Source: a virus. From it: a DNA stretch of 64,000 bases. Shown here piece after piece: positions 2,427 to 58,300 of the stretch. A model generated the notes under the pieces. The model was not told the DNA's origin and ran no database searches. It saw nothing but the letters and a program-made list of their open reading frames with translations. The stretch lies in IMG/VR virus record IMGVR_UViG_3300020473_002200, positions 1 through 64,000 of that record, one strand, 5' to 3'. The first letter of the stretch is position 1; each line of letters opens with the position of its first letter. The translations under genes and the position numbers were made by a program.

Positions 2427-4333
2427 TGCAATTAATAATTACAGCCAGTAAAGACTGTTATATAACAGACAAGATAGTTGATAACAAAAATCGCTCAAAG
2501 AGATCGAACACTGGTAGGGCAGCAACCTTAGATCTATTCAAGCTTTTTGAGGAATCAGGAGTAATTGAGTCTGGTAATTTTGTAACTGCAAACGTATCAG
2601 AGAAATCAGCTCTACTAATAAAGTTCGACTACTCCGAAATAGGGAAATTAACTTCTAGCATTTTAGACATAAAAGGAAGCACAGGGTTTAAGGCGTACTT
2701 GGAGTTACAAGACGTAAGTTCGGGTTTACAAAAGCCATTTAATTTTTCTGCTATCTGTAATCCGCTCGTCCGCGATTTCGAAGAAGGATTTGGTATTGAT
2801 GTTAATTCATTTGACGACTTAGGATCAGCGAACTATATAACTTCTTCTTATTACGCTGCATCCCCAATAGCTTGGAAAGCTGAAGGAGCGTCTGCGGCTG
2901 GCGGTAATGATAATGTTAAAGCGTCTGGCTCTATAACTGTTGCTGGTGCGGGCGGATGGGATAACACTGTTGGATTTACACTAAATGATGGCTCTAATAG
3001 CGTATCATTTTTAGCTAACGCAGCGTCCCCCAATCCAGCACGAACTGATTCAACAAATTATACTTTTGGGATCCAGGGCGCATCAACTGTCGCACAATTA
3101 GCTGACAAAATCTACGCAGGTATTGCATTATCAAAAACGCAGGGTGATCTAAAAATAACCGCTACAGATCCAGGGTCTGGATCAACCATTCCGCTTAAGC
3201 AGGATTCTGCCGGTCTTACGGGAAACACTAATATAACATTAGCAAACGCCGGTGGCCGTCTGACTATTTCGAAATTTGCAGGCGGTCATAGCACAGAGCA
3301 CATCGACATAATAACTTCAGCGTCTTTTGGGACTACGAACGTAGATCTAGGATCATCTTTATATTTTTCAGATCCTAATCAAGACTTGATTTTGGATGTA
3401 ACAAACGCAGTGTCGGCTAGCCTAAAGGGACTTATTAATAATAACGGCTTCAGAATAGGGTTCAGTGGTTCTTATGACACAGATAACAAGACTAGATTTG
3501 TTAAAAGATTTGCGTCTAGGCACATAAAGAATAAATTACTTATACCGAAATTAAGAGTTACATTTAACGATGAGATTTCTGATGATTCGAATAGAGTATT
3601 TATCGATGAACCGAATATCGTCACCTTAAAAACAAAAAGACTTTTTAAAAGTGCAAATCTCCGTGATGGCTCGAATGCGCAATTAACTGGCAATGATTGT
3701 GGTGTTTTAAAAATAGTTTCTGGCTCATACACTAGTTCTGTAAATTTTAGCCAAGTTGATAAATCGTCTGATGGTGATCGACTAAAGGGTGTATATCAGG
3801 CAACATTCACTTTGCCTAGCAACAACGCTTATATTAAAGAGGCTTTGACTGCCAATCCGGACGGATTTAGTGTAAACCTTAAGTGGCAAACAAGCGACGG
3901 GACAATCACATTTTTAGACAAGCCTACGAAAGTTTATAATAGCGCATTTTCTACGTTTGATATAACCGCAGTCTCAACAGCTTTTAAAAATAGAAAGTCA
4001 GAATATCATGAATCTGAGGAAATTGTAATCAATTGTGTTGCAACGATGAGCGGAAAAGAGTATTCAACAGCGAAGATAAGGAAAGATCCTGATTCATTCC
4101 CAGGGCAGCTATATTATAAAATAACTGAGTTACTTTCCGGAAAACAAGTCCTTCCACTTAACTTTAGTCAGCAAAAAGATACTGTAAAGATGAGTTTTTA
4201 TGACGGCGTTTTTTCTGCAACAATAAAATCTGGAACACTATCTGCTGGATATTCTTATAAGCTGGAATTACTTACTGATTTAGACGGTGATATTTTCAAC
4301 TTTGATTCTTCATTCACTTTTAAGGTAATCTAA
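2426..4333 (+). CDS. Baseplate/tail structural protein with an inserted beta module
   Basis: This 635-aa protein is unnamed, but its flanks look like a phage structural family I recall from large phages. The N-terminal block (residues about 6-145, starting SKDCYITDKIV and containing AATLDLFKL and FEEGFGIDVNSFDDL) is continued after residue about 300 by SLYFSDPNQDLILDVTNAV and FVKRFASRHIKNKLL. Between these halves, residues about 168-291 form a separate beta module ending QDSAGLTGNTNITL and FAGG. The same module type recurs in four other proteins of this window, and its placement implies insertion into a loop. The C-terminus (about 530-635) looks like an immunoglobulin/FN3-type beta domain. 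It lies between gp6-like and the gp7-like gene with one-base overlaps at both ends, so a baseplate role is likely. The exact position in the virion is unknown. Confidence 0.7.
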   Translation: MQLIITASKDCYITDKIVDNKNRSKRSNTGRAATLDLFKLFEESGVIESGNFVTANVSEKSALLIKFDYSEIGKLTSSILDIKGSTGFKAYLELQDVSSGLQKPFNFSAICNPLVRDFEEGFGIDVNSFDDLGSANYITSSYYAASPIAWKAEGASAAGGNDNVKASGSITVAGAGGWDNTVGFTLNDGSNSVSFLANAASPNPARTDSTNYTFGIQGASTVAQLADKIYAGIALSKTQGDLKITATDPGSGSTIPLKQDSAGLTGNTNITLANAGGRLTISKFAGGHSTEHIDIITSASFGTTNVDLGSSLYFSDPNQDLILDVTNAVSASLKGLINNNGFRIGFSGSYDTDNKTRFVKRFASRHIKNKLLIPKLRVTFNDEISDDSNRVFIDEPNIVTLKTKRLFKSANLRDGSNAQLTGNDCGVLKIVSGSYTSSVNFSQVDKSSDGDRLKGVYQATFTLPSNNAYIKEALTANPDGFSVNLKWQTSDGTITFLDKPTKVYNSAFSTFDITAVSTAFKNRKSEYHESEEIVINCVATMSGKEYSTAKIRKDPDSFPGQLYYKITELLSGKQVLPLNFSQQKDTVKMSFYDGVFSATIKSGTLSAGYSYKLELLTDLDGDIFNFDSSFTFKVI

Positions 4334-7300
4334 TGGCAAGAAGATCATTAACATTTGAGAATGTAAAATTTTTCACAAAAAGGATGCTCCGAAAATACAA
4401 GACTTCACGTGGGGTATTGTTAGATCAAAATCAAAAAAAATTAACTGTTACTCATGTTAATGATGATGAGACTTCATTTAGAAGAAAAAATGAAAATCAT
4501 GGGCTGGTGTCAACACAGCAACTTCCTGTTGATAATTCACTGTTTCAAAATAACACATTCTTTGGTTCTGCTGAGGCTAAAATTAATATAGCTTTCGATA
4601 AGATTATTAATAAATATCCTTTTGATGGAACCCTTCAGCAAATAGAGCAGTTTGAAGATAGTTTATCATCTTTAGAAAAATATGTTTTAGATAAATTTCC
4701 AAAACATAAAGGGTTTTTGACTTTTGACTCAAGTAAAAGTCAATATATCACTGTAAAAGATAAGTCTGGAAATCTAAACCAATCTTTATTAAATGGTGAA
4801 CAGGGTCTCGCATATATTAACCCTAAACTTAATCCTTTCTCGATTGAATGCGCGCTAAGACTTCCCACAGAAAGTAATGAAAACAGCTTTATATGCCACA
4901 GCGTTCATAAAACTTTAAATACTGGTTTCGCGATATTCATAAACCAAACATCTTCAGAAAAAACAGGCACAATTAATTTCGCCATAGTCAGCGGTAGTGA
5001 CAATTATGCAACAGCTAGTTATCCCCTTAAAAAGGGGAAGTGGTATAATTTATCATTTTTCTATGATAATAGGGCGGAAAAACAAACAGTTAGTATAATG
5101 TCTGGATCTAATACTTTAGCGAAAAGTGATTTTTTCGATTATCCAGGGTTAAACACATCGAATGCTGACTTAATAATCGGTGACGGCAAAAATTTGTCTG
5201 CTGGTCATTTAACGTTTAATAAAAGCAATTCGTTTAGCGGTTCTATAGACGAGTTTAGAATATTTCATGGAGCGCGCTCTACTGATGAAGTAGAGTATTA
5301 CTCTAGAAGAAATATATTTGCGCATGATAATCTAAGGCTATATTTTCGCTTCAACGAACCAGCAGGATCACACTCGAATAATGACGTAATTTTAGATCAT
5401 AGCGGAAATAGCCTACATAGTAGAATATCAAACTATACAGATGCGATAAGGGCCCCTCGTGAAGTAATTGATCCAATGTTTTTAGAAGATCGAAGGTTTA
5501 GTCCAGTACTTTTCCCGAACTATCCGGCAGTTATCAACTTTAACGCAAAGCTATTAGAGCTCGCAACAGAGTATGATATTAATAACCCAAATTTAATAAC
5601 CAAGCTAATTCCTAACCACTATTTGCAAGAGGGCGCATATTCTGAAGGTGTAAGTGTTGATGGTAATATTGTAGAAGCATATAGCTCTATGGGTACTCTT
5701 CCAAAAGCCGGCCGAATTGGACATGTTCAACTAATGTCTTTAATGCTATATTATCTTGCTGAAGAATTAGATCAATATAAAATGTATCTAGATCAAGCTT
5801 CACAATTTTTACACCCAGATTATATGGGCGAAGATGGTATAGCTGATGCGTTTTTACCTGATTTAGCTAAATATTATGGCTTTGAATTACCTAAGATTTT
5901 TGGTGATGTATCATTTGAGCAATTTCTTGGAAAAGAAAATCTAGGTTTGGAATATTCTGTTTATGAAAGAAATCTAAATGAGGTTCAAAACTTGGTTTGG
6001 CGCCGAGTTTTAAAAAATATAAGCCATATTTTTAAATCCAAAGGTACGAAGTATGCATTAAAAACGATTTTTAGATCGGCTGGTATTGAGCCAGACAGAC
6101 TATTCAGGCTGGTTGAGTACAATGGTGTCGATGAGTTTAGGATGGGTATCTCACGGCAACAAATTACTGAAATGTCTACAATTTTAAATTTCTCTGGTAG
6201 TATTTCTAAATTTGTGGAGACTTCCAGACCTGACGGTACAATCATTAATCGGCCAACATTGCTAACAGCGCCATTAACAGCTAGTAGGATTGAGCCTGGA
6301 TTTCCTGAAATTTCTGGAGGTAATGTATTGGCTTCTGCCAGTATACATTTTCACCCATTTGATGAGACTGCAATTCCCGCTGTAGATACAAAGCTTACTA
6401 TCCAAGACGCGTTTAATAATACAGAGACGTTTCAATTTAAAGATACAAGCTCTCATTTGGCTGCGACTGCAACATTAACCTATAGCCAAAATCCCCCAGA
6501 TACTCAGGCAATAACGTTGATTTCTTCTGATGGGACATCTCGTACATACGAAATTGATATAGGGAATGGAGTTACGGCCGGTAGCGTTCCTGTGGTTCGA
6601 GGTGATAACGGCGACGCAACATACGCTAACTTAAAGTCTGCAATAGAAAGCAAGTCTGGACATAATGAAAAAATAACAATACAACATAATAATGGTGGTG
6701 ATTCAAACGATGCAGGCTCTTTAGTTCTGACACAGGCTGTCGCTGGTTATGCTGGAAATACATCGATTACTCATAATCTAGCCGGTGTATCAGGTCTAAC
6801 AACATTTTCAGGTGGTACGAAAGTCATAAGTAGAGTAAACTATAAAGCGACCCTTACTGCTGCCAGCGCGATAGCTGCTCACGGTACAACTGAGAAGCAG
6901 TCTATTACTCTCATATCTACTGATGGCACTTCAAAGAAGTATGTGATTGTCCACGGCGGCTCAGATGGGAAATCAGCGGTGCCAACGGGGACTGTTTTAG
7001 CTAGCGATTCTGATACGGGCTCTGGGACAGCTGGTGGTGGAAATGTTGGCGGCATTGCGGTCAATATATTAAGCGGAGATAATCAAAGAGATGTTCTAGA
7101 TGAGCTCAGAGTGGCTGTTAATCACGGAAATGGTCACAACGCTGGGACTCCTAATTCTAAAATAATATTTCCTGTAGTTCCTGATGCAATCGCCGGTCAG
7201 CTAGTTGTAACATTGATGCAAGCCGTTGTGTCTTCTGATTCTGCAAAGACCATTACTGAAGACATAAGCAATATTACAAAAACAAATTTCACCTTAGATA

Positions 7301-10300
7301 CAAAAAGATCAGCGCTTATAACGACTGATTTAAATACGATAATTGCATCTTCATTTCCAGATACTCTGGTAACAAAAACAAAGAATAAATCTGCTGGTAA
7401 TAATATTGATACGATTGAATTAACCACAAAAAGTTTTAGTCGTAGTAATATTGGGAACCATCTTTTGTCGATCGCTTCTCCAAAGATACCAAAAGTGTGG
7501 CTTAGGATGTCATCAACTGCCCCCACTAACTTAGGGACAACGACTGTAGCTTCCGAATATCAACCTCGTGCCGCTCATGCAACGTTACAAGTAGCTACAG
7601 GTAATGCTGCTCATGGTACAACAGAACTTCAGGCTATTACTCTAATATCGACAGATCAGACTACCAAGACGTACACACTGGTTAACGGAGGCGGCAGCGG
7701 ATCATCAGCGGTGGCAACTGGTACGGTGCTGGCTGTTGGTAGTGATATTGGCTCTAGAGTGATTGCGGCAGACACTTCTGCAAATTCCCTTGTGGGAGGA
7801 AGAAGTTATAGGATAAAAACAGTTGGTAGCACCTCAAATTGGTCTTCATTAGGCGCTTCTTCAAATACACCGGCTATTGGGGAGGTATTTACGGCTGCTA
7901 ACGGGGTATCTGCCACAGGCTCAAGTCATGGAACTGTTGAAGAATCTATAATCGGCCAGATAGCAGTCAATATACTTACTGATGATAACCAAAGAGAGGT
8001 TCTAGCAGAACTAAAGACAGCCATAAATCATAGCAATGGACATAATAATGGCAGCGCTGATAGCAAAATTATAATTCCCGCTGTGCCTTCCGCAGCAGGA
8101 TCAGCACAGTCTATAATATTAGAGCAAGCGACTGTAGGTAGCACGGGTAGTACCAGCTCGACTGAAAATATAGCGAATTTGACCATAACAAATTTCGGTG
8201 GTAATCCAATAGCTATATCAAGTGAAACAATAGGCGAGATAACCAGGCAGGCTGCTACTTTCGATGGTTATAACGATTCGATATCAATCGGATCAGCTGC
8301 TGTGTGGGATGCCATTATAGGCGATGACACTGCTGGTGGCTCAACAAAGAAGATGTCTTTTTCTATATGGATCTATAAAACTGCTGATGGCGAAGGTGAC
8401 CTAGGCAGAATATTCGATTTCGGTAATAGCGATATCTTTTTATATAGTACATCTACTGAAATATTGGCTTTTAGCGTAAGATTGAATGGTAGCCTTACGG
8501 AGTGGAGAACTGATGCTTCATATTTCAATTTAAATGAGTGGACGCATATCGTCATAACTTACGATGCAACTGATACCGCTAATAATAATCCTGTAATATA
8601 TGTAAATGGTCAAAGCCGGACTGTTGCACACGTCGGTTCATCCGCTGCTAAGCATGCATCATTTTCCGGTATCGCTACTGAGGCATGCTTTATTGGGAAT
8701 AGAAATGCAGAAGATAGAGCGTTCCAGGGCAAAATATCAGAATTTCAGGTCTTCAATGATATATTAACTGCGAATGAGATTTCCAAAATTTACGCTGCGG
8801 AATCTGATGAATGTATGCCACCGTTTATAGCGGCTAAAGGGTTTGCTGGCGGTAATGGGTTCGTAAGAGCGAACACTCCAGGCTTTGAGTATGCGGGAAT
8901 TTCTGCTACTCAAAATGATGGTCTTTTAACGTCTGGATCTTGGACCGTAGAAGGTGTATATCAGTTTTCCAGTAATTTGTCGAAAGAAAGTATAAGAAGT
9001 CTTTCGAGAATAGTAACACAAGGTAAGACGACTGGTCAAGACTGGAAAGACAAGCATGGCGTATTAACAAACTTAGTGCTTTCTCCATTCGGAGATCAGT
9101 TGAGCTTATATGTAAGAAGTAAGCATAAAAATGATGCCCCGGTGCTTATGACAGTATTAACCGGTGCGAATTGCTTAGATGGTCAAAAGTGGTACATAGC
9201 CTACGGCCGTCAACGAAATGATGAAATTAGTCAACCTGTAAGCTCTTCATACTTTATAAGGGCAGCGTCATATAATTTTGATAAAATGACGACATTTATT
9301 ACAACAAGCTCTTTATTTGATGAAGGCTCTGCTAATGACAACGTATTCCAAAATACAAAGCAACTAGTTTCTACTAGCACCTATGAGTATTTTAACCCAA
9401 CTCAAATTTTAATAGGCTCTCAGTCAATGGCGAATACCAGTAATGGTAAGTTTTTAAATAATTCAGATACCAGCGTAGTTCCTTTTGACGCAAGAACGAC
9501 ATATTTCGATGGAAGAGTGGGCCACCTTAAGTTTTGGTCAAAATGTCTTACAGAGGAAGAGTCCAAAGAGCATGCTCGTAACTTTAAGTCCGTAGGTACA
9601 GACAACCCACTTGTAAATAACACATTCAGTAATACTAGATCTGGTTCGTTTCAAAAACTAAGATTAAATGTATCCACAGACCAAGTTAATAAAAAAACCA
9701 ATATAGACGGTTCCTTAAACCTATTAGATTTTTCACAAACATTTACACCTAAAAATGAGGCTAAAGTTCAATCGGGCGTATACACTAGTATGTCTGGTGC
9801 TTTGTGTTTTGGATTTGAGTCTTTTAAAGATGTGGTGGAGAATACTAGATTTGATTATACAATAATATCGCCATTTTATGATGAATATTTGGAAAGTGAT
9901 AAAATAAAAATAGCTGGATTTTCCGAAGGCCCCAATATAAAACTTTATAATTCTAAGATTGCTCCCGTAACAGAAATACTGCCTTTTGAAAAGAAAGTAA
10001 ACGATAATCGATTTGAGATTCAAGTGCACCTACAAAGAGGTTTAGATGAAGATATTATGAATATATTCTCTGCTATTGACGCTTTGGACGACGCTCTTGG
10101 AAAACCAGAGTTGGTATTTGCTCAAGAATATCCAGACTTAAGAAGAATGAGAGATCTATATTTCAATAGGCTTACTGATAAGGTAAATTATAGAAACTTT
10201 TTTGATTTATTTAGATGGCTAGACGATGCTTTCTCTGATATGGTGGAGAAATTTGTGCCTAGAAACAGTAATTTTCTAGGAATCAATTTAATTATAGAAT

Positions 10301-10428: not shown

Positions 10429-13400
10429 ATGGCATCAGTAAGAGATTCTGCTGAAGTAAAATTAATTGGCTTTGAGCAAGGTGTAAGTGTAAAAACAAAA
10501 GAGCAGCTATTGTCTCAAACAAGGGCCAGATTTCACCCATTAGCTAATCCAACTATTTCTATAACAAACAAGGTCGACAAAAATGCCACTGCGACATTAA
10601 GGGTAAAGAATATTCCAGCTGACCCCGGTGATGGAAACTATACTTTGCACCTACAATCACATAAGGGTTCCGCATATGACCTAAAAATACGCACAGTTGG
10701 TCAAACAACTGCAACGTCTGTTGTAACTGTGAACACTGGTGCGACAGTAAGTAATTTAAATAATCTAACAATTCAACTTACTGATTTTTACAAACCAAAT
10801 GCAATAACGACATATATCACTTTTACATTTTCTTCATCATCTACAAGGATTATTAGGAATTCCTCAACCTCCTGGAGTATAGGGTTAAATGGTGTTACCG
10901 GTGATGCTGCCGCTGTAAGGGCAGGAATAGCTGAACGTATCTATAACGCAATCTACAAAGCTCAACTAGACGGTGAATTAGATATTACCCCAGTTTTAGA
11001 TGGCCAAACAGTCAAACTAACACAAGATAACGCTGGTACTAGAGGTAATGCTAAACCCGGAGGATCTGCTTTATTAACGCCTTCTGCAAGCAGTAGCTAT
11101 ATTTCTATTCCAAATTTTACGGGTGGTACACTAGGCCTATCTAGAACATTAAACATAGGTAATCTTCGTCACCCTAAAGATGATACAGCTGTTGCTCTAG
11201 GCTTACTAGATCCGCCTGGTTATTATGTAGAGGAAAATGTGGGTGTTGGTGCTCCGTATGCTGACATAATCAATACTGACGCTCAAAAAATAAAAAGATT
11301 AACGTTTGACTTAAATAGAATCATAAATTATAATTCAAGATCTTTGTCTGCCGGAACTATATTACAATATAAGCAGAATCCAGCAGATGCACAGAAAATA
11401 ACATTGGTTTCTACCGATGGTACTTCTCGTATCTATGAAATAGACACAGGCAATGGTGTGTCTGGTGATAATATCGCAGTCACATTAGGTGCTACTCCAA
11501 ATGATACATACGCTAATTTAAAGTCTGCAATAGAAAGTCCAGCTGGTCATAGCGGTAAAATAACAGTATTCCACAACATCGGTGCTCCATACCCATCTGA
11601 TGGCGGCTCTTATGGTGAGTGGGATATAGGAGAAATTCATTTGACCCAACTCTCCGGTGGTACAGGTGGAAATAGGGCGATTACGCACGATCTAACAGGT
11701 CTTTATTACTCACCAGCATTCTCGGGTGGTGTGGATGGCACCGGTATAACATCTAAGATAATTTTAGACGATACTCTTTTTCTTGTTCAAGATCATCGTG
11801 ACCGACCTATTAGCGCCGGTTCATTTGTTTCTGGGATTAAATACGAAATACTGGCTGTTGGTAATACAAACTTTAAATCAATTGGTTCATCGCTAAATTT
11901 AGTGGGTACAAGTTTTACTGCCACAGGTCCTGGCACCGGCACTGGGACAGCAAGAGTGCATTTAGATTCAGCCATAGGTAAAAAAGCGAAACAGGTTGGA
12001 CTTGACTCTTCAGGCGCTGCGCAACAAGAGATCATTTTTGGTTTAGAAAATTGGAAGCTTGTTTCAAAAGATTCTGACGACTTTCTTTTTCATGATCTGC
12101 CAACAGCTCATAGGCAATGGGATTCTAGTAAAAGATCAACTAAAGTATTATTAAATTTTCCAGATTTACCAAATTTACGAACGTCTATCAAGAGACTTTT
12201 TATGACCATTGAATACACATTATTCAATGCAAATGTACCCACAGAGCCAACCAATAACCCTGAAACAATATCAAGAATCAAGTTTTACATTAATAATGGT
12301 ATAGATAATGATAAAAAGTTTGCAATTGTTTATAACTCGAAAGAAAGAGTGACAGAAGTATTAGTCAACCCATATAGCACTTCATTTGCACAATTAGCGT
12401 CAAACTATAGAGAAGACAATTTCGTTTTTTGCCTTCAATCTGCGCTAAATACGCTCACGGATAATGCGCCATTTAAGTTCGAACTAAAAGAAAAATTAGC
12501 TGCCAATTATGAATATTTCATAGAAATTACAGAGAAGGGACTTAAAACAACTTATTTTTCTGCATTTTGTGAACAAAATCTATCTGCTTTAACAAATAAT
12601 TCATTTATGGGTTTCTTTAGGGATAAAGACAGCTTTTTAGAGGGGTTTGAAGAAATTCTTATTCGTGATGGTGATGGATCGCAATCTATACCAGCTAAAA
12701 CAATATCGCTAATGCCAGATAGCGCACTATATAGCCCAAAGCTAGACGAAGCTTGGACTGAGCTTCAAAATAAAAAAGTTTATAGAGTTGGATTAAAAGA
12801 AGTATCCAGTATTAGCGATATAAAAGATAGGATATTTGATACGATTTGGCTAGCAAATAGTGAGGGTAACGTTGATATTACACCGTCAATGTCTGTAGCC
12901 ACCGCTAGAATAACTGTGCAAGATTCGCATTTAGCTCATGGGACGAGCGCACTATCAGATAGCATTACAATAAAATCGGCGTCTGGTGTTCAAAAGAAAT
13001 ATACTATTGTTCGTGGTGGATCTGGTGGCACCAGCGCAATTGCAACCGGTGAGGTTATTGTGGAGGGCTCAGCCGCTTATGCAGGACATACTGTTGGTTC
13101 TGGTCACGCTAGTATTGGATCGATCGCAGTAAATGTAAAGAACGCGTTCACTCGAAGAGACGTATTAAGAGAATTAATACTTGCAATAAATAGCAAAAAT
13201 GGTCATAATGGGGGAATTCCGAATAGCGTAATTAATGTTGGGGAAATTAATAAAACGGGTGATGATAATACAAAGACCCAACGAATATACTTAAAGCAAG
13301 TTGTTGCCGGATCTGGTGGTAACGAAACCATAACTAAGACTGCAATGAGCCTCTATGCTATTGAGGGTTTTTCTGGCGCTGATGATTATGTGTCTCGTAA

Positions 13401-14355
13401 TTCAATAAAGCTAACAACATCTCTGGCTCGCGGTTATCCATTCATGTTAACCAGAAATAAGGTTAATATTCCCAATGATGTACTCGTTTCTAGAAATATG
13501 TACACTTTGGATGATTTCTCTGCCCCTGTTTTTTCAATTGATTTAAGGGATGGTGCCGATAATAATTCATACTACATAAAGCCCAATCACGATGTAGAGG
13601 TTAGAAGTTTTGGTTTCGGTAAGAAAACAAACGATCTAAGGGTATTCGATGATCTTTCTATGAATGGCCCAAGGCTTCATTCTGGTGATTATCCAAAGAC
13701 GCTTGATATTGATCCTGTTTTTTACCTAACTGCCTCACCAGAAGTAAGATTTCCGATCCAGGTTAATAACTTGGGCAATGTATTGGGTTTCGAGTATGAT
13801 GGCGTTATCGAGCCTCTTGGCTTAAGAGAATTAATGCTGGGTAGGCTTGTAGCTGAATCTCCTATGAGGGGTCTTTCTGCTGAGATGGGGGGAAATTATA
13901 GTTTTTCCTCAATTAGAAAAGAAGCCGCGCTTATTCATAATAACATAACATTCGAGGAAGCAAAAAATGTTGCATTTTTTGATAATTGCCCATCAATCTC
14001 TGAAGTTATAAAGGGTGAAGGTTATACAACATACAGTTTTCGAGACCCAGCGGTCTCATCAGCTGCTAATAATGTTTTTTACGCTAGAATTCCTGGTATT
14101 ATTTTTAAGAATGAAGCTAAAATTCAGCCTTATATAGACACTGAGGAAAGGGTATTTCAGGCTAACCCTCTAAATGGTAATAACCCTGAAACAAATGAGA
14201 TGGATATGCTCGTATTACATGTGCAAGAGCTGAACCATAAAGATGATAGAAATCTAGGGGCAGAAAACTTTCGCCACAGAGCTGGTTTCGATTTTTCCTC
14301 TTCTCCTCATCCTGGGACTGACTCAATAGCTTTTGGTGGTTTACGATATGTTTGA
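10429..14355 (+). CDS. Modular virion structural protein (1308 aa), probable baseplate/tail periphery
   Basis: I do not recognise the whole protein. Its N-terminus (SVRDSAEVKLIGFEQGVSVK) and C-terminus (about 1080-1308, including VRFPIQVNNLGNVLGFEYDG) look like a compact phage structural core. Between them are three copies of the beta module found in neighbouring proteins. They are at residues about 123-238 (closing LTQDNAGTRGNA and FTGG), 308-438 (KITLVSTDGTSRIYEI, NLKSAIES, FSGG) and 823-986 (GVQKKYTIV, ELILAINSKNGHN, FSGA). A short 'GIKYEILAVGNTNFKSIG...FTATG' motif sits at about 463-511. The start ATG directly follows the stop of the preceding gene (TAAATG), and the end overlaps the giant gene by 8 nt. 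A role in the adhesive shell around the baseplate is inferred from neighbours only. Confidence 0.65.
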   Translation: MASVRDSAEVKLIGFEQGVSVKTKEQLLSQTRARFHPLANPTISITNKVDKNATATLRVKNIPADPGDGNYTLHLQSHKGSAYDLKIRTVGQTTATSVVTVNTGATVSNLNNLTIQLTDFYKPNAITTYITFTFSSSSTRIIRNSSTSWSIGLNGVTGDAAAVRAGIAERIYNAIYKAQLDGELDITPVLDGQTVKLTQDNAGTRGNAKPGGSALLTPSASSSYISIPNFTGGTLGLSRTLNIGNLRHPKDDTAVALGLLDPPGYYVEENVGVGAPYADIINTDAQKIKRLTFDLNRIINYNSRSLSAGTILQYKQNPADAQKITLVSTDGTSRIYEIDTGNGVSGDNIAVTLGATPNDTYANLKSAIESPAGHSGKITVFHNIGAPYPSDGGSYGEWDIGEIHLTQLSGGTGGNRAITHDLTGLYYSPAFSGGVDGTGITSKIILDDTLFLVQDHRDRPISAGSFVSGIKYEILAVGNTNFKSIGSSLNLVGTSFTATGPGTGTGTARVHLDSAIGKKAKQVGLDSSGAAQQEIIFGLENWKLVSKDSDDFLFHDLPTAHRQWDSSKRSTKVLLNFPDLPNLRTSIKRLFMTIEYTLFNANVPTEPTNNPETISRIKFYINNGIDNDKKFAIVYNSKERVTEVLVNPYSTSFAQLASNYREDNFVFCLQSALNTLTDNAPFKFELKEKLAANYEYFIEITEKGLKTTYFSAFCEQNLSALTNNSFMGFFRDKDSFLEGFEEILIRDGDGSQSIPAKTISLMPDSALYSPKLDEAWTELQNKKVYRVGLKEVSSISDIKDRIFDTIWLANSEGNVDITPSMSVATARITVQDSHLAHGTSALSDSITIKSASGVQKKYTIVRGGSGGTSAIATGEVIVEGSAAYAGHTVGSGHASIGSIAVNVKNAFTRRDVLRELILAINSKNGHNGGIPNSVINVGEINKTGDDNTKTQRIYLKQVVAGSGGNETITKTAMSLYAIEGFSGADDYVSRNSIKLTTSLARGYPFMLTRNKVNIPNDVLVSRNMYTLDDFSAPVFSIDLRDGADNNSYYIKPNHDVEVRSFGFGKKTNDLRVFDDLSMNGPRLHSGDYPKTLDIDPVFYLTASPEVRFPIQVNNLGNVLGFEYDGVIEPLGLRELMLGRLVAESPMRGLSAEMGGNYSFSSIRKEAALIHNNITFEEAKNVAFFDNCPSISEVIKGEGYTTYSFRDPAVSSAANNVFYARIPGIIFKNEAKIQPYIDTEERVFQANPLNGNNPETNEMDMLVLHVQELNHKDDRNLGAENFRHRAGFDFSSSPHPGTDSIAFGGLRYV

Positions 14356-17300
14356 TAGCAGAAAAAAAAGAATTATACCAGATTTATTATCTGATATACA
14401 ACATAGGAGTGGCAGAATAAACCTCAGTAAAGATGTCATTGCGAATTTTGTATTTGATAGAATCACTGACGATGTTGTTGCAAATCGCTATCTTGAAGAA
14501 GACGGCTTAAACGATTTAATTTTCATTAATGAAAAATTTCTAAAAATTGAAGGCGTTAATAATAAGTTGATTAGCGGCGCTTCCGGTTCTGATGGCACTT
14601 TTTCTAGGAAGGAAGTAGATCCAGCAAGCCCACCTGCATCAATAGAAAATACAGCTATAGAATATTCTTCTTTTCTTACTAATTCATCTCCATTTAAAAA
14701 TAAGTCGATTACTTTAGGCGATAAGACATTCGCTGCAAATTATTATTTCTCTTATAGGCCCGAAAATTATAGTTCTAAAATATTAACAAGGTATAATGCA
14801 AGATCATTATCTATTGGGACATCTTCTCCACATATAGCAAAGATTTCTATTAGTGGATCTGTGCCTTTTCATAGAAATGAGATATCCGGTTCGAGATTGT
14901 CAATAACTGTCCCTCAGATAGGTGAATCAAATGTAACTAAAAATTACACCCCACTATTTTTTGAAGAGCGACAAGAGAAGGCGTTTCAAAGTCTGGTTTT
15001 ACGAAGCGGGATTTCTGCAAATAGTGGCGATTTTTTTGGTCTATCTAATGGTAGAAAAGCTGATTTCGAAATTTCTATTGCTGATTTTAAGATTTCTCCT
15101 ACAAGAAAGAGGTACAAGATAGATCCTGTTGCGACCACTATATTCGCCACTGGATCGTATTCAACGGCTTATCCTAATACAACAATTATTCCTAACGCTG
15201 GGTATGATTTAGCTAATCGATTTAACTACTACGCTTCTGGCTCAACAGAATCAGGTGATCCAACAACTCCCACATCCTATGAGAGAGTGTACGCTTCAGG
15301 TAGCTTGGATCTAATAAGCGATTCTAAGCTTTGGATTGGTAATTTTGTTGACGCTACTCCAGCTAATTCTGGGTCGGCTTCGGTAACATTTGCATTTCAG
15401 GATACTCCTGATGACAGTAATACGTTCACTACTCAATTGATAGATGGATTATACAGGAATACCTTCGATACCTCTAGGGATTCTAGCCAAAGGTTATATA
15501 TGGGCCATGCGAATCAATGGGCCGGCCTCACTGGCGCATCTTCAGGTGGTAAAAGTACATTTTCTTGTTGGGTAAAACCGGTAAAGGCCCAAGGTCATAC
15601 AAATGATCATGTTATTTTTTCATCGCAAGACGATAACTACTTAATAAGCATACCTGATAGCGGTAAGATTAAATTTACTAGAAATTTTTCAAGTAGTACA
15701 GCGTATACTGTAGAAACTGAAAAGCGTGCATTTAGTGTTACGAGTAGTAGTTCTAATAGGTTCGAGAGCGCACAGTGGACGCACATCTGTGTAACCTATA
15801 ACGGCCCCGCGTATAATGGGACAGCAGCTGTATATATAAATGGTATGCCTGTTGCTATGGCAGCCGCCAGCGCTACTCCAGCTTCAGATAAAACAATAGT
15901 CACCGTGACAGGTACTGATAATGGTGATGGGGCCACCTTAGGAGATAAACCCGGTGGCACGCGAGGATTATACGGCCAATACGCTGATGTAGGTTTCTGG
16001 AATAGGGTCTTAACAGCTGACGAAATTTATGAGTTATATTCTAGACCATTAGCTAACTATAAATCTAGCACAAATTTACAGCTCCACGCTCAACTAACTG
16101 ATCCTATAACAAAGAAAGGCGCTGCAGCAGTAAGTCCGTCTTATTTTATTAATTCGACTATAGGAAAGCTCACGGATAACGAAATAGGGTCTAGAACTTA
16201 TTCTGCATACACGTTTTCTGGTGAAGATGATCGAATTGATATTGGCAAAGTCTCTGTGTGGGACGCAAAGATCGGTGATGCATCTGGATCGACAAAGAAA
16301 ATAACATTATCAGCATGGGTTTACCAAAAGGGGGATTCACCAACCAGCAATAGGATCATCACATTTGGCGCTAATAATGTGATACTTTATACGCATGATA
16401 ACTCTCCCAACAATGATGGCCCATGGGATCTTAGGTTTTATTTAAATTCAGGAGGCCCAGATCAGGGAGGGGCTGGTACAGGTGGCGCTTGGTCTGCTTG
16501 GGCAGCAAATAAATATCATTACTGGAAAGTCGACGATGCAATTACAAAAAATACATGGCACCATGTTGCTGTTACATATGATGCAAACACAAATACTTCG
16601 GCTCCAGTATTCTATGTTGATGGTGTGCGTAAAACCACTGCAGCTGGTGGTAGTGATCACAGTATTGGTTCTCAATCAAGCTGGGGTAATTGGCAAGGTC
16701 TTGTCAATATTGACAAGTACAACTACGGGAAATTAGTAAACGGTATCCCCAGACCGGTTCCATTAGGTCCTAACGTTCTTAATAGCTATTTATTAACTAA
16801 TACTGCAACAAATATATCTGTAGGTAGCAACGGTAATCTTACATTCAATTCAAACACTCTTGCTGCCGCATTCGCTGCCGTATTCCCAGTTGGGTCCATT
16901 GTCAGGCTTCAGAATCCAACATTGACAGCAGATTTTATAGTTGGTACATATTCTTCTGGTGCAACAGTGCCGTTCACAGCGTCAGTAAAAGTTACAGGTA
17001 GTGGCACTACATTGTCTCTAAATACCGTCACATTAATGCAAGAAGTTTTAGAACAATCCTGCCATATCGGAAATGCAACCAATAATAGCAAGTTTTTTAA
17101 TGGCTTGATCGCAGAAGTCGCAGTTTGGAACTCAATACTAACAGACTCAGAGGTATTTGCCGTCTATTCTGCAACTCAATTTGCTCATGATAATTCTCTT
17201 ACTACAGTTGCGGATAACTTGGTTAATACTATAAATTCAGATACTAGCTTAGATATCAAGGCAATAAAACATCAAGGGAATAAAACTTCTGCAAATATAA

Positions 17301-20300: not shown

Positions 20301-23300
20301 AAAGACCGTCGTCGATACCAAAAGACAAATGGTATACTCTATTTATTGTTTTTGATGAAGCTTCCTTTGAAAGAAGCGATTCTGCTAATTACATAGCACT
20401 TTATGATGTTGAGAATCATGGAGCGATGGTAGCGTATGCGAACTTCGTCCCTAATGATGCTGCACCAGAGGGTGTGCAGTCAGCTGAAAACAATTTATCT
20501 GACGGAATAGAGAGGCCTAGATTATTTATTGGGTACGGAAATAAAGACTCTGGTGGTTTGGCAACAAATTTCGGAACTTCTCCGCAATTGCCAGCGAATG
20601 AAGCAAGCTTCTATAATAACTTCTACCTCGCAGAGTTAAGCATTTTAAAGAAGCGCCTATCACTGGACGAGGCCGACAAAATTGCTGAGTCACATCTGGT
20701 ATTGAGGACTAAGTCGGGTTTTAGGACTGATTTACCAAAAAAAGCACTCCATGAAAAATTCCAGCAAAATAATATCATAGAAGGAGATTTCACTCCGTTC
20801 GTAGAAAGCTCAAAAACAACAGAGGATTTAGTTACTGGTGACGTCACCTATCCTCACATGATGTCAGCGGGTACCACTGGTTCTATTGTATTCACATTTA
20901 CTGATGTCCCTGCCGATAATTCGGGATTTAGTATTAGATTGCCTAATGGGAAAGACTTCCAAGTAATTTTTGACTCTTCTTCGACAGTTATAGATGGGTT
21001 TACACTGGACACAGCAACTTCTGTCATAACTGATTCGAATAATATTCGTGCTTATAATTCTGCACAAACTCGATTTAAGTGCGGAATAGAGGGGTTAATT
21101 TCTAGAACGGCAATTGTGGATCAACTGCAAAAGCTTATTAAAAATATAAATAGATATTCCGGTATCCCAGTTCAGGCATCTCGTACATCATTTAACGCTA
21201 TAAAGCTAGAATGTCAAGATCCTGGTTCATTTAATACAGAATATAACGCTGCATCAAAAGTTGTCACATTTAATAACACATTTGATGAAGATAATATCTT
21301 GGCTGGTAATATACTACAAATAATAGATTCTAGAGATGTTAGTATTACATACACAACTATATCGACCTCTGGGGGCAGTACGCCATGGGCTTCTGGCAAT
21401 TCTCAAAAGATCGGTGTGGCGCCAGGTAGGCCAGCGACCTTCGCCGTTGATGAATTAGTCTCGAAAATAAACGCAGTTTCTTCATACGAAGTATCAGCTT
21501 ATGATTTGGGCGGATCAACCACTAGGGCTAGTATGCTATTGGTTCCTGATCAGGATAAGGAAGTTAAGGTAATTGAGATATATAGTCGATATGGTAACAG
21601 AGACGATTTCACTATAGTTACCAACGCTCCTACATCATTATGCGTTGTGTCTAATAGCCCGGCTTCGAACATAGTAGTGTCAGATGATAAATTGTCTGGT
21701 CAGATTTTTCGTAATTCAAAATTAGAAGATTTTTCTTCAACATCTAGACACAATTCGATTAACACTGGGGCTAAAGCGCTTGAAGATGTAAAGGCGACAA
21801 TAAAGTGTAACGCTGCACCTCTTACGACATTCATTAATAATTCCAGCGTCACTGTTGAATATCTCAATAGGGTTTTAAATGATGATAGGCTTGACAACGA
21901 TATTCCACAACAGATAGTCGACGTACAAAATCTATCTCGCGGAATAAAGGACACAACTATTCCTCGTCGGCCTATCATAAAGTTTAAGATTCAAAATATA
22001 GAATATGTGGCTAGATTAGATAGTAAGCTGCAGTTAGCAGAGTCTAATAAATTCAATATAGGGGTTTCTGATGTTAATTCTAATTCAACATTGGCTACTT
22101 CTGTTGCTAATTCAATATCTGACGCCGTTGCTAAAGATAATTTGGGCTTAGTCGTAAGTGTTAACGATGATACAATTACTTTAAATCCGAATAATAAAGA
22201 TTCAAGTCTAAGTAGGGTCAACTTTCTAGGCGATGGTATTGGATCAATTTCCGAAGGCTTTATGTTCGAAACTTCAGGGTTTAATTTAATGTTAAATCCA
22301 GAAATGACAACTGACGCTAGAGAAAGTCTAACAATCCGAAAAACCACGTCATCTAGTAAGCCGTTCTTAGATGATGATAGGATGAATTTAGGTTTAGCAT
22401 TTTTTGCTAAAGGTTCAGCACTTTCAGGTTCCGCTAGCAGATTTATGGCAGCCACGCGTAATAGAGTTAGAATAGAGATTGACATTAACCCTGTTGAAAA
22501 AACTACTTTAGGATTCACTACTGGTTCTGGGACATCTGTCACAGATGGTTTTTCTGCTGGCAACTATAATCCGATGGGTTATTTTAATTTTTCTTCAAAA
22601 AAGTGGGAATCAATTTCGCCAACATTTTCTCCTAAGATTGAAACAAAAAAGGATGCAAATGAAGAAGGTCAAACCCGAGACCAAGCTATCAATGATGCCG
22701 TTTCTGATTTTCAAGCTTCTGCGCCCATCGGGTTTGGCGGGACTTACGGCTTTTCTATTCATCGAAAAGACACTTCTGATCACGCTTATGCTTGTATCAC
22801 TCATGTAAGCTCTAGCAATTTCGCCCTTACTGCGACAGGAGTAGTATCGAAGGTTGTAAAACTTAATGAAAGAATTAGGCTTACATCTACATCTGGTAGG
22901 GAAGTTGACTATATCATAACCAATAAGTCGGGCATAGGTTCGGGGGATGCTTTAACAGAGTCAACGAATATTAGCGATGATAATAAAAAACCTTTTACAT
23001 CTGCTAGAGATGGTGCTCGCGCGATAAATCTAGACTTAGATAACGGGAACCTAACATTTACAACATTTATGATAAACCTATCAGTAGCAATAAGCCGCGG
23101 TCACTCTGGTCATATTGAAGCAGAGCCACTTTGGCCTGATTTATCTAGCACTTTTGGTGCAATAACTAGCCCGGCTGACAGCACAAATATTCAGGGCTCG
23201 GGTTTAACGTTAACTTTTACAAATCCATTAGGTCGAGCGTACAAGGTGGGAGATAAATTTTATTTTCACGATACCAATGGCAACTACACCATCGTAACGC

Positions 23301-26300
23301 TCACAACAGATCGTTCACCTACTGATAAAACGATAACTGTTGATTGGGACTCTTTCAATTCAACTTCAAACACAACTGCAATAAGCCAGGTACGTTCATG
23401 GGGCTATGCAGATTTTTCAACTCCCAAACTATCACTTAAATTAAAACAACTAGAGATGGGCCCCGCGGGCAATACAAGGATCCTTAATGGCTTAGGGGGT
23501 ATAAGGGTAGAGGGCCATGCGAAAAGTACTCATACATTGACTTACACGGGTCAGCCCGCTGCTGGTCAAAGTTTGGTTATTCATAGTAACGGGGGTAATA
23601 CAAACAATTTTGGGTTTGTGTCAAACACTACTCAAACCGATGATCACACTTCAACATCACTTCCATCCGGGTTCGCATTGAATTATGGAAACTCTAGTAT
23701 AGTTGGCAAGATTGGAATAAATAAAACGATCACTGTTGCGGGAACCGCATATACATCTGGAAATGCAAAAATATTGGTTATGGGCGGCCAAAATGGATCA
23801 AGTCAAAACACTATTTTATTCATTAATCCAAAGATCCCAAACGGTACCATACTTGTTGTTTCTTTTTACGCATCTAGAAACGATTTCTATTCTGGTTATA
23901 ACGCCATGGGTACTGATGCAAATGAAGAAATAAAAGCCCGATATTCCACAACACTCGGCGGCAGCTCGGATGTGAGCCAAAAACATTTCGAAAAATGGAA
24001 CGGCTCAGCTTGGGTTACTCTAAGCTCTGCGGGCACTATCGCTGGTGGCGATATTACAGATACTACAACTTTAGATCATTTTAGAATAAAGTTTGATAAC
24101 CACCAGTCCGATGGCCTTTATTACTCAATTGAAAAAGAGGCGGCCGGCGCGTCTGACAGTACAATAGGTATATTCGGTATTCGATATGACATTTTACCCG
24201 GTCATCACGGGGCACCTGTGGCAATAGGATCGGATGCTGACGAGACATATGCAAATTTAGTAACTGCTATAAATAATAATTTATCTTCCAGCATTTCACC
24301 AGCTTACTTAAACCCTGCTGATGATTCAAATAATTCAGGCTCATTTATTTGGTCGAACCCTGGAGATCATGTTGCAATATTCGATATGACACCGCCGTGG
24401 CTCCCGAACACCGCAATCGATAACGCTAGTTTGGTAACTAACAAATCGTATATATCAAATAGCGAAAATATTTTTGCTGGAAAATATTCATCTTTTGTAG
24501 GTGGCATTATTACAAGCGATAATGAGCCGAATAAAGATTCTACCTTTAGCGGCCTACACTACGCAGAGCTACCCCTAAGAGGCCGGCCAGTATCTAATTT
24601 TGGTTTCCCATTTTCTGATACTTTTAAACCCGCTGAAGGCCAAAAGTTAGATCTTTCCAATTATCTAGACGGTCCCTTTTTGTTAGAGAAATTTGAAATT
24701 ATTTGTAGTTCATCGATTCGAGATGAAGTACAGGAAGGCGTAGGTAGAGTGTTACCAGAAACACATACTGATTTACCATTTTCCAATTATGGTCAATCCA
24801 ATGAAGCCTCTCAATTCTTCTCAGAAGAATCGTGGGTGTATAATGACAATTCCGCAACATCAATGAGCTATCACGGAATGTATGATGATCGATTTCGAAA
24901 CCTAGAAGCCCAACGTATGTATGACCGATTTTACCCATGGACTTCAAGAGACCTTCATTGGAGCGTCTTATCTCAACCATTCGGCAATAGATTCAAGTAT
25001 CATGACGGCCTTTGGGGCCATACTCCGCTTGTGGGTAAGAGCACTTTCACAAAGGAAAGGATTCAAAAAGAAGGTGCGTATCATCGTGTCGGTGGTAATG
25101 TATACGCTAGACAAGGCCAAGCCACAGACTATTTAATAAATGATAGCGTTTCGAACGCAAATACCGTTGAGGGTAGTGCATGGTGGCGATGCGATACTTT
25201 CTTTTTGATGCGGGAAAAACAAGCAATAGACGCTAGATATGATGTACCGATACCAAGCGCCGCAAAGTCAACTGGGCAAAATAATTCAGAAGCGTTCGCT
25301 GCAGGCACCCTTTACTTTTACGCGCGATATAAATATTACTCATATGATACCAACCCATACACCTACGATACATACTACGATGATGGCGCGTGGATAGCCA
25401 ACTCCTGGAAGTCTGTAAATAGCCCATGGGTTCCAGGGACTGGATACGAATCTACAGCAGAATGGTTGGCTAGAGTTGTTGTAATGACGGATGTGCCGTA
25501 TATAGAGATAAAGTCTCATAACCCTATTTTCGATCCATCAGTGTCGCCGTTGGTTGCTCATAGAAAATATAAAATTATCTCAGTCCCAGGTTCAAGTAAG
25601 CCAGATCTTTCTTCCCGCGGTGGTCCTGCGTCTGATAGCTCTGACAATGTCGCCGGATATACGTTTTATTCTACTTCAGCAGGAACAATTTCTGGTGCCG
25701 GTGCTACTCGCTTACAAGAGCACGCTAGGATCATACGTATATATTTTGTAACACGTAGTCAATTTGCATACCCGGAAGAAGTTGCTGCTGCTGTTCCTGA
25801 ACCGGGTACGTCAACATCTGAAATAGATAAACGCTATAATGGGTCAATTCGGTATGCTATTGATATTGACTATGCGCATTGGGAAGACGTATTTGGTATT
25901 CATATTCCAGCTTTAAGCAATATATTGTCTGCGATTAAAGTCACAGTTGATGCTGCAATGAACAGGGGTCATCTAGATGGATTTGAAATAACTGCCCCAG
26001 GCTATTCCGCCATGCACTTGCGGTTCCGTATAACAAACGCAACAACAGATGATTTTTCTGGAGATACATTCAATACAACAGCACAAATCACTACATCTGA
26101 TCATTTAATCGCGATGGAATTTACTAACCAGATGTGGGGATCTTGGTTTGAAACCACCGACATCTTTAATTATCATCCTTTTCACGACGCAACATCAATT
26201 ATAGGCAGCACCGCAGCTCCTTACGCCAGGGAAGATCTAGTGTACAATGGAGCAAGAATTAATAGAACGGAAGTCTCTAAAACCGGCCAACGTTCTGGCT

Positions 26301-35842: not shown

Positions 35843-35883
35843 TTTTTAATGATTTAATCTTTAACGATTAGTTGTTGACTTTT

Positions 35884-35917: not shown

Positions 35918-35962
35918 AACTCTGAACTGCTTTTTCTTAAAATTCAACAAAATGCTTATACG

Positions 35963-35968: not shown

Positions 35969-35972
35969 AAGT

Positions 35973-36485: not shown

Positions 36486-36525
36486 TCCAGCTGCTTAATT
36501 TAACCCACAGAATCCCGAGAGTGTA

Positions 36526-36535
36526 TATTTAACAT
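36526..36535 (+). promoter_or_regulatory. Second copy of the TATTTAACAT element, at the 1089-aa gene start
   Basis: TATTTAACAT is identical to 29917-29926 and is preceded by TA, giving TATATTTAACAT. It lies directly before the ATG at 36537, leaving no room for a conventional ribosome site; the nearest purine run, GAGAG, is about 16 nt upstream. It could be a promoter giving a near-leaderless transcript, or chance in AT-rich DNA. Confidence 0.22.
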
Positions 36536-36536
36536 C

Positions 36537-39806: not shown

Positions 39807-39807
39807 A

Positions 39808-50760: not shown

Positions 50761-50763
50761 ATA

Positions 50764-53076: not shown

Positions 53077-53128
53077 TTTTGGTTCTATGGGGTGGTACAT
53101 TAAAATTTTACTGTTTTTTGTGCCTAAG

Positions 53129-53136
53129 TATATTTA
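53129..53136 (+). promoter_or_regulatory. Candidate AT-rich promoter element TATATTTA before the 253-aa gene
   Basis: The 84-nt gap 53077-53160 contains TATATTTA about 25 nt before the ATG, similar to the TATATTTA at 36524-36531. A start site soon after it would leave the AGGAG ribosome site (53150-53154) intact. A T4-late-like TATAAATC at 53142-53149 is also present, but it would start transcription on top of the ribosome site. Confidence 0.3.
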
Positions 53137-53160
53137 GAAAGTATAAATCAGGAGAAAAAT

Positions 53161-53922: not shown

Positions 53923-53966
53923 TGATGTGCACAGTTTATAGTTTTAAGTTTTAGGGGATTATTTAA

Positions 53967-55316: not shown

Positions 55317-55328
55317 GAAGGGGATAAA

Positions 55329-58300
55329 ATGGCTCTAATCCCTATTCTACCCGAGGACATAAAAGTCAGTTCGGTGAAGGTTCATCCGAATCAGCATTTT
55401 GTTTCGTCTTCTAACGGCGGAATCAAAGGCGACATATTTTTGTTTGCTGAGAGAAGTCAAACCTTAAAAGAAATTACAAGCGAATTAGAAGAATATACTT
55501 TTGATATTAAGTCAACACTTTCCGTAGATGATGCAGGATTGACAATAAGGAAAGATCAAAAAAGGTCTAGACACGATATATCTGGGCTTGTTGATAACTA
55601 CTTTATAAATCTAGGAAAACTAGCTGGCTCTCTTGATAATACCAAAAAACTAATAGTCTATCGTTTTGACATGCCTCATCGCTTTAATGCGAACACAATA
55701 AGAAAATCTGTTTTCATTAAAAATTTGTTACCCTTTTACCAAGGTGAGTATGAAAGACCAATGTCATTTGGGTTTTCAAATTATCATAGCTTAAATTTCT
55801 TTACTTCTTCTGCTGCATTTCCCTCAAACGTTCCTAGCAATACTGCTCTAATTTATCCAATACCCAGTAGTGGTAGCAAACCATCTAGGTATTATCCATC
55901 TGGATCATTTAGCTTTGAATTCTACGTGAACCCTAGATACACTACAGATACGGCGAGCGATGCATATACTCCTGGGACTATAATGCACTTACCGAACTGT
56001 TACGCAGTATCGCTTGTGTCTGGATCTCATAAAGATGAGCTAGGTCGCCCAAGATCATTTAGATTAATGTTACAATTAGGAGATCATTCTGCACTTCCAC
56101 CGTCTAAAGTTTATGTCGATCCAAAAGATGCCGCAACGGGTAGCATCTCTACAAGAACATTCATTTCTGCAGACGGATTTTTGGAGAAGGATAGGTGGAG
56201 CTATTGTGCGATTAGATGGGGTGGCCCAACTCAAAATGATTATACTGGAAGCTTTTATATAAATGGTCAAAACGCAGGTAACTTTGTAATTCCAGATACT
56301 GATCTATCGTTTGGCCGTACGGTATTTACAGACGCAAACGACATCCCTTCAGCTTTGCTAATAGGAAATAGGTATAGAGCAAGTAATAATCTAAGCGTAG
56401 ATGATGATGATTTAATCACAGTCGTAGATGGTGCTTCTTATACTCCTGCTGTGCCCAATACCCATGCTTCTGGAAGTTTTAAAATAACATTAACACCAAC
56501 AGCAAACCCAAGTAATAAGATAACCAGAGAAATATTATTTCAAGCGCCAACAGGTAGCGTACCAACAGATATGGTCGCTCTTAATAACAGTTATACACCA
56601 GCCAATAATGTAACAAATTTAAAAAATGCGATTGTTGGTGCAGCAGTAGATCGCACAGGGGATTCTGGTTCAGCAGCAATGGCTACAATAATCTTTACTA
56701 ACGAATTAGCAGCAAATAGTTCTATAACAATTATTAATTCTGCAAATGTTAGCAAGACCTATACAGCTGTTAACGATGGGTCCTCAAATTATAACGATGC
56801 CTCCGGCTCTAAATTTAAGCGTGGAAGTGCTAGTGGAACTGCTTCAGCCAAGGCTGCTATTGCGGCCCAAAGCCTGAAGGAGGCTATAAATGCAGCAGCT
56901 AATAGTTCAGGTGGCGGTCATGGTGGAACTATAGTCGCGACAAGCGCGGCTGGTAGAGTAAATTTAGTTCAAGCGACAAAAGGCATTGGCGGAAATAAAA
57001 ATATTACAACTTCTCCATCTTCAATTACAAATGCAACAGTACCATCTGCATTCACGGGCGGTGTTACTATAATGAATCCTGCTTTAACGGGGTTATCTGC
57101 GCAAATAATAGGTAATGATATTAATCTTACTTATGGCGCCGGTCGAATAGACATTTTTGCATCAAGCTCAGTTCAGATTCCAACGCTGCAAAAGGCTTCG
57201 GAAAGTCATGGTAACTTTCTAACTAGTCTATTTAAGCCATCTTCGCAAAACCCTGTTTACGGTAATTCAAATTCTAGAGCTGCTAAGACTGGGTTTCTTT
57301 TTGATTCTGGATCAGCTGAGACTTTTGGGACCGTAAATTTATTGGGCGACATTACCGATGATGAAAATCTTACCCACTCTTTAGATTCACCTCTTAATGC
57401 AGAGTTGCAGGATATTAGGATTTTTAGTAGGTGGAGAACAGATAGCGAAATTAAGTCGACTGCAGAGACTGGATATTATGATTTTGGTGATAAGCATTTC
57501 TTGTTTTATCTTCCACCCTATTTTGTGCCATCGAGTTCTGTGCGCCAAATGTTGAAAACAGTAACTCAAACGCATTATTCGAGTAGTCATACGCCGTTTA
57601 ATCTTGATCTTTCATTTGGCCAGGGCGGTCGATTATTGAATTTAGAAAATTTTACTTATGATTTAGTAACCGGTACTCAAGCACGTTGCTATAATTTATC
57701 AGCGACCCCTCCTTCTGGGACATGGTCTGATTTTTCTGCTGATGATTTTGACTTTATGCCTGCAAGCGACGCAATTTTACTTAAGCCAGAAAATAGAAAA
57801 AGAAATTTAACAATATTACCAAGCGATCTGGGCCAGCTGAAACCAGGCCTCAGCTTCCTTGATGCTCAAGTGTCTAAAATAACAAATAAGCAATCTGATT
57901 TATTTTTCGTAAATGATCAAAAGCAGCCTGCAAAGGGTATGGTAACACTTAGGGACATGATTTCTATGGGCGCTCAATATAACGAACTTGTTTCTTTTGA
58001 CGAAGAAACTGGAAATATTGACTCTATGGTGGATAGTTTATTCCCAAGTATAGAGGTTGCAATTCCAGTAGACATGGACAAAGACGGTACAGCAGACTTT
58101 AAAGAAATTGCTCACTCTAAAGCGTATGGTCAACAAAGCGCAATCGGGTTAACTGTGCTAAATAGGACCCGCGATGTAAACTCAAGTGAAATTATGTTTT
58201 TGGATATATCTAATATATTCTACGGGGATATGATCAAGCGTGAATCATTTGTTATGCATGATCCATATGTCACTGGGTCTGCAGGTAAGATCAAACTAAC

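Follow-up and report, generated by a model that had tools for sequence, protein, structure and literature searches.

The lateral domain of the phage tail sheath, as described for phage Adele, is a seven-stranded beta-sandwich with a flanking helix that has no direct part in contraction, and it also occurs in podovirus nozzles, auxiliary capsid proteins, FliD and flagellin (PMC12846349). The sheath insertion domain of Vibrio phage XM1 resembles domain D3 of FliD (PMC10457771), and the auxiliary capsid protein gp36 of crAss001 contains a FliD/FliC-like domain termed FD (PMC10172136). Additional sheath domains located away from the tube were surveyed by Evseev et al. in 2022, with proposed roles in adsorption or stability (PMC9230969). 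Neither the fold, as it occurs in sheaths, crAss capsids and FliD, nor the idea of accessory sheath domains is new. Such FliD/Mu-sheath-type domains were reported singly, and most treatments of accessory sheath domains regard them as immunoglobulin (Ig)-like and guess at an adhesion role. Here we describe a family of modules of this fold that recurs in at least six virion proteins of one large contractile-tailed phage. The window analyzed comprises bases 1-64000 of the 188,264-bp virus record IMGVR_UViG_3300020473_002200 (the whole record is G000), and its module carriers are proteins of 635, 2031, 1308, 5181 and 1129 amino acids (aa).

A first-pass annotation of the window had named these five proteins as carriers of a pattern recurring at least ten times. 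All five were confirmed, with one copy in the 635-aa protein, three each in the 2031-aa and 1308-aa proteins, and one each in the 5181-aa and 1129-aa proteins. Nine copies in the window are clear (E 2.5e-38 to 9.1e-5) and the tenth is only weak (E 0.014). The main test profile had 26 rows, none of them from the 5181-aa protein, and was run against the whole record; the window copies other than copy 8 are rows of this profile or, in the case of copy 4, close kin of rows. Counting the tail sheath encoded outside the window, the genome holds about 13-14 copies (Table 1). Modules are about 105-170 aa long and fall into short, compact and long subtypes.

The proposed check with a profile of three copies (two from the 2031-aa protein and one from the 1308-aa protein) succeeded only in part. 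It found two other copies (E 9e-22 and 1e-15) and missed the 635-aa copy, the 5181-aa copy and the first 1308-aa copy, while the 1129-aa copy scored 7.8 bits, the same as the best shuffled control. As a sole detector it was rejected as too narrow. With a five-copy profile, E was 2e-4 for the 1129-aa copy and 0.0025 for the 635-aa copy, and iteration with copies from related viral contigs brought the 5181-aa copy to E 2e-4 before its inclusion. The missed copies thus reach significance only with more copies and relatives, and shuffled controls stayed at or below 10.7 bits with the enlarged profiles. The module family is real but divergent.

Table 1 Modules and associated features in the window.
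Feature	Position (strand)	Carrier and residues	Evidence or remark
Copy 1, short subtype	2906..3304 (+)	635-aa protein, aa 161-293	E 3.6e-22
Variable block with copies 2-4 and LamG/ConA-like domain	6334..8892 (+)	2031-aa protein, aa 668-1520	
Copy 2, compact subtype, AlphaFold target	6448..6834 (+)	2031-aa protein, aa 706-834	E 2.4e-36
Copy 3, long subtype, directly behind copy 2	6832..7308 (+)	2031-aa protein, aa 834-992	E 2.5e-38
Copy 4, long subtype, split by mini-module	7561..8214 (+)	2031-aa protein, aa 1077-1294	Two pieces, E 1.9e-7 and 9.0e-19
Mini-module inside copy 4, about 54 aa	7780..7941 (+)		Row of the 3-member profile, found by construction
Laminin_G_3 (concanavalin A-like lectin/glucanase) domain	8341..8784 (+)	Same variable block	Pfam PF13385, E 3.1e-27
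Copy 5, short subtype	10696..11142 (+)	1308-aa protein, aa 90-238	E 9.4e-23; also in L008 and L010
Copy 6, compact subtype, youngest insertion	11341..11742 (+)	1308-aa protein, aa 305-438	E 1.0e-34
Mini-module	11815..11970 (+)	1308-aa protein, aa 463-514	Row of the 3-member profile, found by construction
Copy 7, long subtype	12883..13398 (+)	1308-aa protein, aa 819-990	E 2.0e-37
Copy 8, about 100-aa insert ahead of last strands	22811..23512 (+)	5181-aa protein, aa 2822-3055	E 9.1e-5
Possible divergent module directly behind copy 8	23519..23797 (+)	5181-aa protein	Weak, E 0.014
Copy 9, compact subtype	56661..57074 (+)	1129-aa protein, aa 445-582	E 2.6e-28

The first-pass annotation knew no function for the modules, which was too modest in that their fold can be named: it is the type seen in FliD D2/D3 and in the lateral domain of the Mu sheath, and it has been published for sheaths, crAss capsids and flagellar caps. 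Structure prediction of a single copy, which it had suggested, gave a confident beta-sandwich with a helix. This AlphaFold model of copy 2, made with 25 relatives, had a predicted local distance difference test score (pLDDT) of 84.9 and a predicted template-modelling score of 0.81, with strands (E) and helix (H) in the order E-E-E-E-H-E-E-E-E. In a Foldseek search of the PDB, the top 23 matches were all FliD, flagellin D2/D3, or sheath or tail entries of phages Mu and Bas63. The best FliD D2/D3 match had E 1.9e-3 and probability 1.00 (5h5v, 5xlj, 5h5w, 6kty and 5fhy: E 2e-3 to 7e-3, probability 0.98-1.00), and the Mu sheath entry 9khy_a had E 6.2e-3 and probability 1.00; 9ki1_1, Bas63 9mt4_Q and the FliC D2/D3 entry 8erm were also found. 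A viral structure library gave E 5e-9 with a template-modelling (TM) score of 0.77, and baseplate-J-like and tail sheath proteins were among the matches. A full-length model of the 635-aa protein had a pLDDT of 45 and was not used as evidence; its strand-strand-strand-helix order at aa 183-238 agrees with the copy 2 model.

Profile comparison pointed to the same domain. In hhalign, the 26 short copies aligned to the lateral domain of the Mu sheath (Mu L aa 98-226) with P 4.3e-6 and a probability of 87%, and all copies together with P of about 1e-4; scores were 31-38 versus at most 1.0 in 60 column-permuted controls. The modules did not match the remaining Mu-type sheath. This sequence-profile link is moderate, not overwhelming. 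In the whole record neither the phrog_165 sheath hidden Markov model (HMM) nor PF07196 (Flagellin hook IN) had a match at E <= 10, and PF07196 had none in any module family member either; a single module copy searched alone gave E 0.25 against phrog_165 at HMM positions 107-207. Because these two models find no modules, we claim membership in the Mu-sheath and FliD families only modestly. Pfam and PHROGs scans of the members returned only scattered, chance-level matches, and a PDB sequence search gave three unrelated dehydrogenase/reductase matches (E 1.7-2.8), which were discarded.

A sixth carrier is encoded outside the window. The 1675-aa protein at G000 84588-89615 is a tail sheath (phrog_23, E 4e-54; Pfam Phage_sheath_1C, E 1e-8) and holds four to five modules according to the 26-row profile. 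These lie between conserved sheath segments in more than one loop: a block between '..NPYAG' and 'GRTHFL', one behind 'LMKESAPS' and one behind '..LAASRTAITNN'. A position between the N- and C-terminal sheath core is true of the sheath copies, and the window copies sit in other proteins. Next to the 1675-aa sheath is a second sheath paralogue, at least 842 aa long and free of modules. Two adjacent sheath paralogues are present in most relatives (L040-L118; L labels denote loci on related viral contigs and G labels whole records) and three in L096; in this phage (G000 82001-89615, L004) only the second bears modules. Across related contigs, 11 of the 59 distinct core-complete sheaths contain modules; the sheath tree calls for six or more gains or losses, and the sites lie in about three to four different loops. 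Sheaths with a single module carry it behind '..AGIQ' (L086, L093 and L100) or later, ahead of the '..QSFVM' segment (L055). Clear sheath sites come only from these single-module sheaths, because multi-module blocks hold conserved sheath segments between the modules; defining sites by deletion of a whole block was rejected.

Clean empty sites for whole modules were found in relatives for all six carriers. In the 635-aa protein, copy 1 corresponds to a clean 128-aa gap in four homologues (L011, L012, L014 and L015). In the 2031-aa protein, the variable block is 853 residues long here, against 11 in the same four loci, 642 in L008 and 1086 in L010. In the 1308-aa protein, the 135-residue module at aa 304-438 is replaced by three residues in L008 and L010. 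The 1129-aa protein has 283 residues at aa 366-648 versus 44 in L006 and 13 in L007. Because the sequences on either side of its module look like halves of one LamG-like domain (Pfam below cut-off, E 0.0024), this module may have been inserted inside such a domain. The 5181-aa protein has an orthologue of 5220 aa in the phage of L010 (G003), 43-52% identical over long aligned stretches. This orthologue shares copy 8 and has a further whole module between 'ALDVG' and 'AASLILQP', where the phage described here reads through 'AIDVGGTATSASMILQP'; the stretch that received this module is itself laid out like a divergent module. The DNA flanks of one empty site, read by eye, had no obvious target duplication.

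The relationships among copies were examined in a tree of 81 copies. The 12 full-length copies of this phage occupy 12 separate places, most of them beside the same-site copy of a relative. This pairing indicates that most insertions are older than those relatives, and it rules out a recent amplification of all copies within the phage. Two clades mix copies from different proteins: one joins copies 2 and 6, from the 2031-aa and 1308-aa proteins, with sheath copies (support 99/94) and the other joins copy 9 of the 1129-aa protein with sheath copies (98/83). The suggestion of the first-pass annotation that domains were shuffled between genes of one phage is therefore borne out for movement between genes, by these mixed subtypes and the clean whole-module gaps; most copies are not recent duplicates within one phage. 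Copy 6 is the only case that looks like a young local transfer between genes. Both nearest relatives lack a module at its site, and it is most closely related to copy 2 in the neighbouring 2031-aa gene (69.8% DNA identity over 202 bp) and to the copy 2 orthologue in L008. The G+C content at third codon positions (GC3) of the modules equals that of their carrier genes, and a recent foreign origin by base composition was rejected on that ground. Whole-module insertion and exchange between genes, mostly predating the nearest relatives, is well supported.

The family is unevenly distributed. A long-subtype query found 21 viral contigs, and the first set of loci alone yielded 75 module copies. Among the 17 records searched whole, which may be fragments, some had 10-17 matches (G001, G003 and G006), and none was present in four large ones that have sheath or baseplate genes related to those here (G004, G011, G012 and G013; 178-298 kb). 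In cultured phages, tblastn searches of 50,697 phage records gave no match, whether the query was the 1308-aa protein or a canonical module. Two coarse pattern scans of 84,980 prokaryote genomes found no relative; each used two short peptide patterns, so only close relatives are excluded by them.

The copies, the fold of one of them, the empty sites, the subtypes shared across genes and the presence or absence by lineage are best accounted for by one accessory virion domain that was inserted repeatedly into at least six virion proteins, where it would face outward and give weak contacts to the cell. We give this explanation a probability of about 0.55. The modules would be copies of a single domain, a beta-sandwich with one helix and the fold of the Mu-type sheath lateral domain and of FliD D2/D3. 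On this explanation, recombination has put whole modules into exposed loops of these proteins within one contractile-tailed lineage, the recipients being the tail sheath, proteins encoded beside the baseplate wedge, the 5181-aa protein and the LamG-bearing 1129-aa protein, with movement between genes, tandem stacking and nesting of modules. The carrier loops presumably face outward, and the core machinery would work without modules and be undisturbed by an inserted domain. Together with the lectin-like LamG domains of the same variable blocks, repeated weak domains may provide many low-affinity contacts with the cell surface and so lengthen the stay of the virion on its host until the real receptor step. 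Adhesion is the likeliest role, at roughly even odds, and the first-pass idea that the modules might serve to vary or thicken the adhesion surface is plausible.

Several points weigh against this explanation. The Foldseek E-values against the PDB are moderate and TM scores are mostly 0.43-0.53, and the model of the 635-aa carrier (pLDDT 45) is too poor to show how a module is oriented. No conserved binding or catalytic residues that would speak directly for adhesion were seen; conservation is highest at Q96, I76, N104 and F120 (numbered as in the first row), which look structural. In a sheath contracting within a dense array, modules might just as well act as cement or filler.

A broader proposal, which we put forward only tentatively, is that a sheath-derived or sheath-related domain has become a genome-wide, self-spreading and interchangeable coat part over the sheath, the baseplate and the giant surface proteins of some large-phage lineages, which it colonised by insertion of whole modules between genes and even into other modules, so that the whole outer tail surface would be drawn from one exchangeable set.

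A structural role is the strongest competitor, though we consider it fairly unlikely: modules would be cement or spacers whose neighbouring copies touch and stiffen a very large tail, with cell contact incidental. The lateral sheath domain of phage 812 is cited in PMC9230969 as a proposed stabilizer of sheath disks, the FD domain of crAss001, which has the same fold, sits on the capsid and touches the major capsid protein (PMC10172136), and four to five copies per sheath subunit in this phage fit such a role. Copies are, however, gained and lost at the same sites among close relatives, large related phages (134-298 kb records) have none in the records searched, and the surfaces are very variable (about 30% mean column identity), unlike a conserved mutual interface.

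It is less probable still that the modules are near-neutral selfish insertions, an insertion-tolerant fold that spreads when similar sequences recombine and that benefits the virion little. Such spread would suit the many copies in some phages and none in others, the modules nested in modules and carrying mini-modules, and the location of the copies found in long structural genes. Yet most copies are old, with frames and fold-defining residues intact at 20-70% identity and with the GC3 of their carriers, which points to selection for folding, and about 5 kb of useless coding sequence would be unlikely to be kept in a phage genome.

That the modules belong to the promiscuous Ig-like domains known from phages is very unlikely: they share the behaviour of small beta domains inserted in virion proteins at variable copy number, but none of them has an Ig-type Pfam match, Foldseek found Ig folds only at probability <= 0.18 versus 1.00 for FliD and the Mu sheath, and strands 4 and 5 of the module are separated by a helix. 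The least credible explanation is that glycine- and serine-rich beta proteins have converged, to which the copies missed by the three-copy profile and some noise-level look-alikes in the 5181-aa protein might be ascribed. For the nine clear copies (not for weak ones) convergence is already refuted by E-values down to 1e-38 with shuffled controls at <= 10.7 bits, by identities between copies of different genes of up to 50%, and 69.8% at the DNA level, and by clean module-sized gaps at module boundaries.

A mini-module of about 50 aa is present in three proteins; the loop at which it splits the larger module differs between the 2031-aa protein and the sheath (L004 aa 392-445). Its pattern is Y.I...G.T.W..lGAs...GevFTA, and the 3-member profile finds two further copies in L010 (E 1e-17 and 3e-16). 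LamG/ConA-like domains recur in module-bearing virion proteins (8341-8784, 15545-16027, and near aa 190-360 of the 1129-aa protein). The 5181-aa protein (14348-29893) has further strand-strand-helix-strand stretches near aa 940-1140, 1044-1300, 1690-1860 and 2180-2400, all at noise level, which may be very old module copies. At the left end of the window are genes for a gp25-like baseplate wedge protein (166 aa; phrog_261, E 6e-10) and a gp6-like one (641 aa; phrog_219, E 7e-8; phrog_6, E 2e-7), and the five carriers of the window lie downstream of them, among others. By eye, the open reading frame (ORF) at 59276-60241 has a zinc-finger-like N-terminus (C..C...C..C) in a primase-like layout and overlaps the end of a 187-aa ORF resembling a resolvase-type nuclease.

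With empty sites in close relatives, insertions can be dated and their donor and recipient genes identified, and accessory-domain function can be tested on naturally occurring forms of one protein with and without the module. A module profile would also help annotate the long 'hypothetical' proteins of uncultured viruses, in which Pfam and PHROGs see essentially none of these modules. In the literature searched, we found no report of one sequence family that occupies six or more proteins of a single phage and has natural empty sites, and the genome-wide proliferation of the family appears to be new.

The closest described system is the lateral domain of type 2 sheaths (phage Mu L; Bas63, phiTE and Adele), which is like the modules in fold, according to Foldseek, and in sheath-core position, with profile likeness over the helix, '..L.a...G..GN.I' and '..GG'. 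That domain is one integral copy per sheath, whereas this phage has many copies of several subtypes in at least six proteins as polymorphic insertions. The D2/D3 domains of FliD and flagellin give the best PDB fold matches and, like the modules, are accessory outward domains on a filament core, but their family (PF07196) has no sequence match in the whole phage record. The insertion domain of XM1, by its published description, is likewise placed in the sheath, within its N-terminal domain, and resembles FliD D3; it is a single copy called unique to XM1 (PMC10457771). The FD domain of crAss001 gp36 is also a FliD/FliC-like fold inserted in a virion protein, but it is on the capsid, with one copy per subunit, and occurs in most crassviruses. 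Finally, the promiscuous Ig-like domains of phages and the additional sheath domains of Evseev et al. behave like the modules in evolution, being small accessory beta domains that are inserted into virion proteins (PMC9230969). Their fold is different, and in the phage described here one family dominates one genome.

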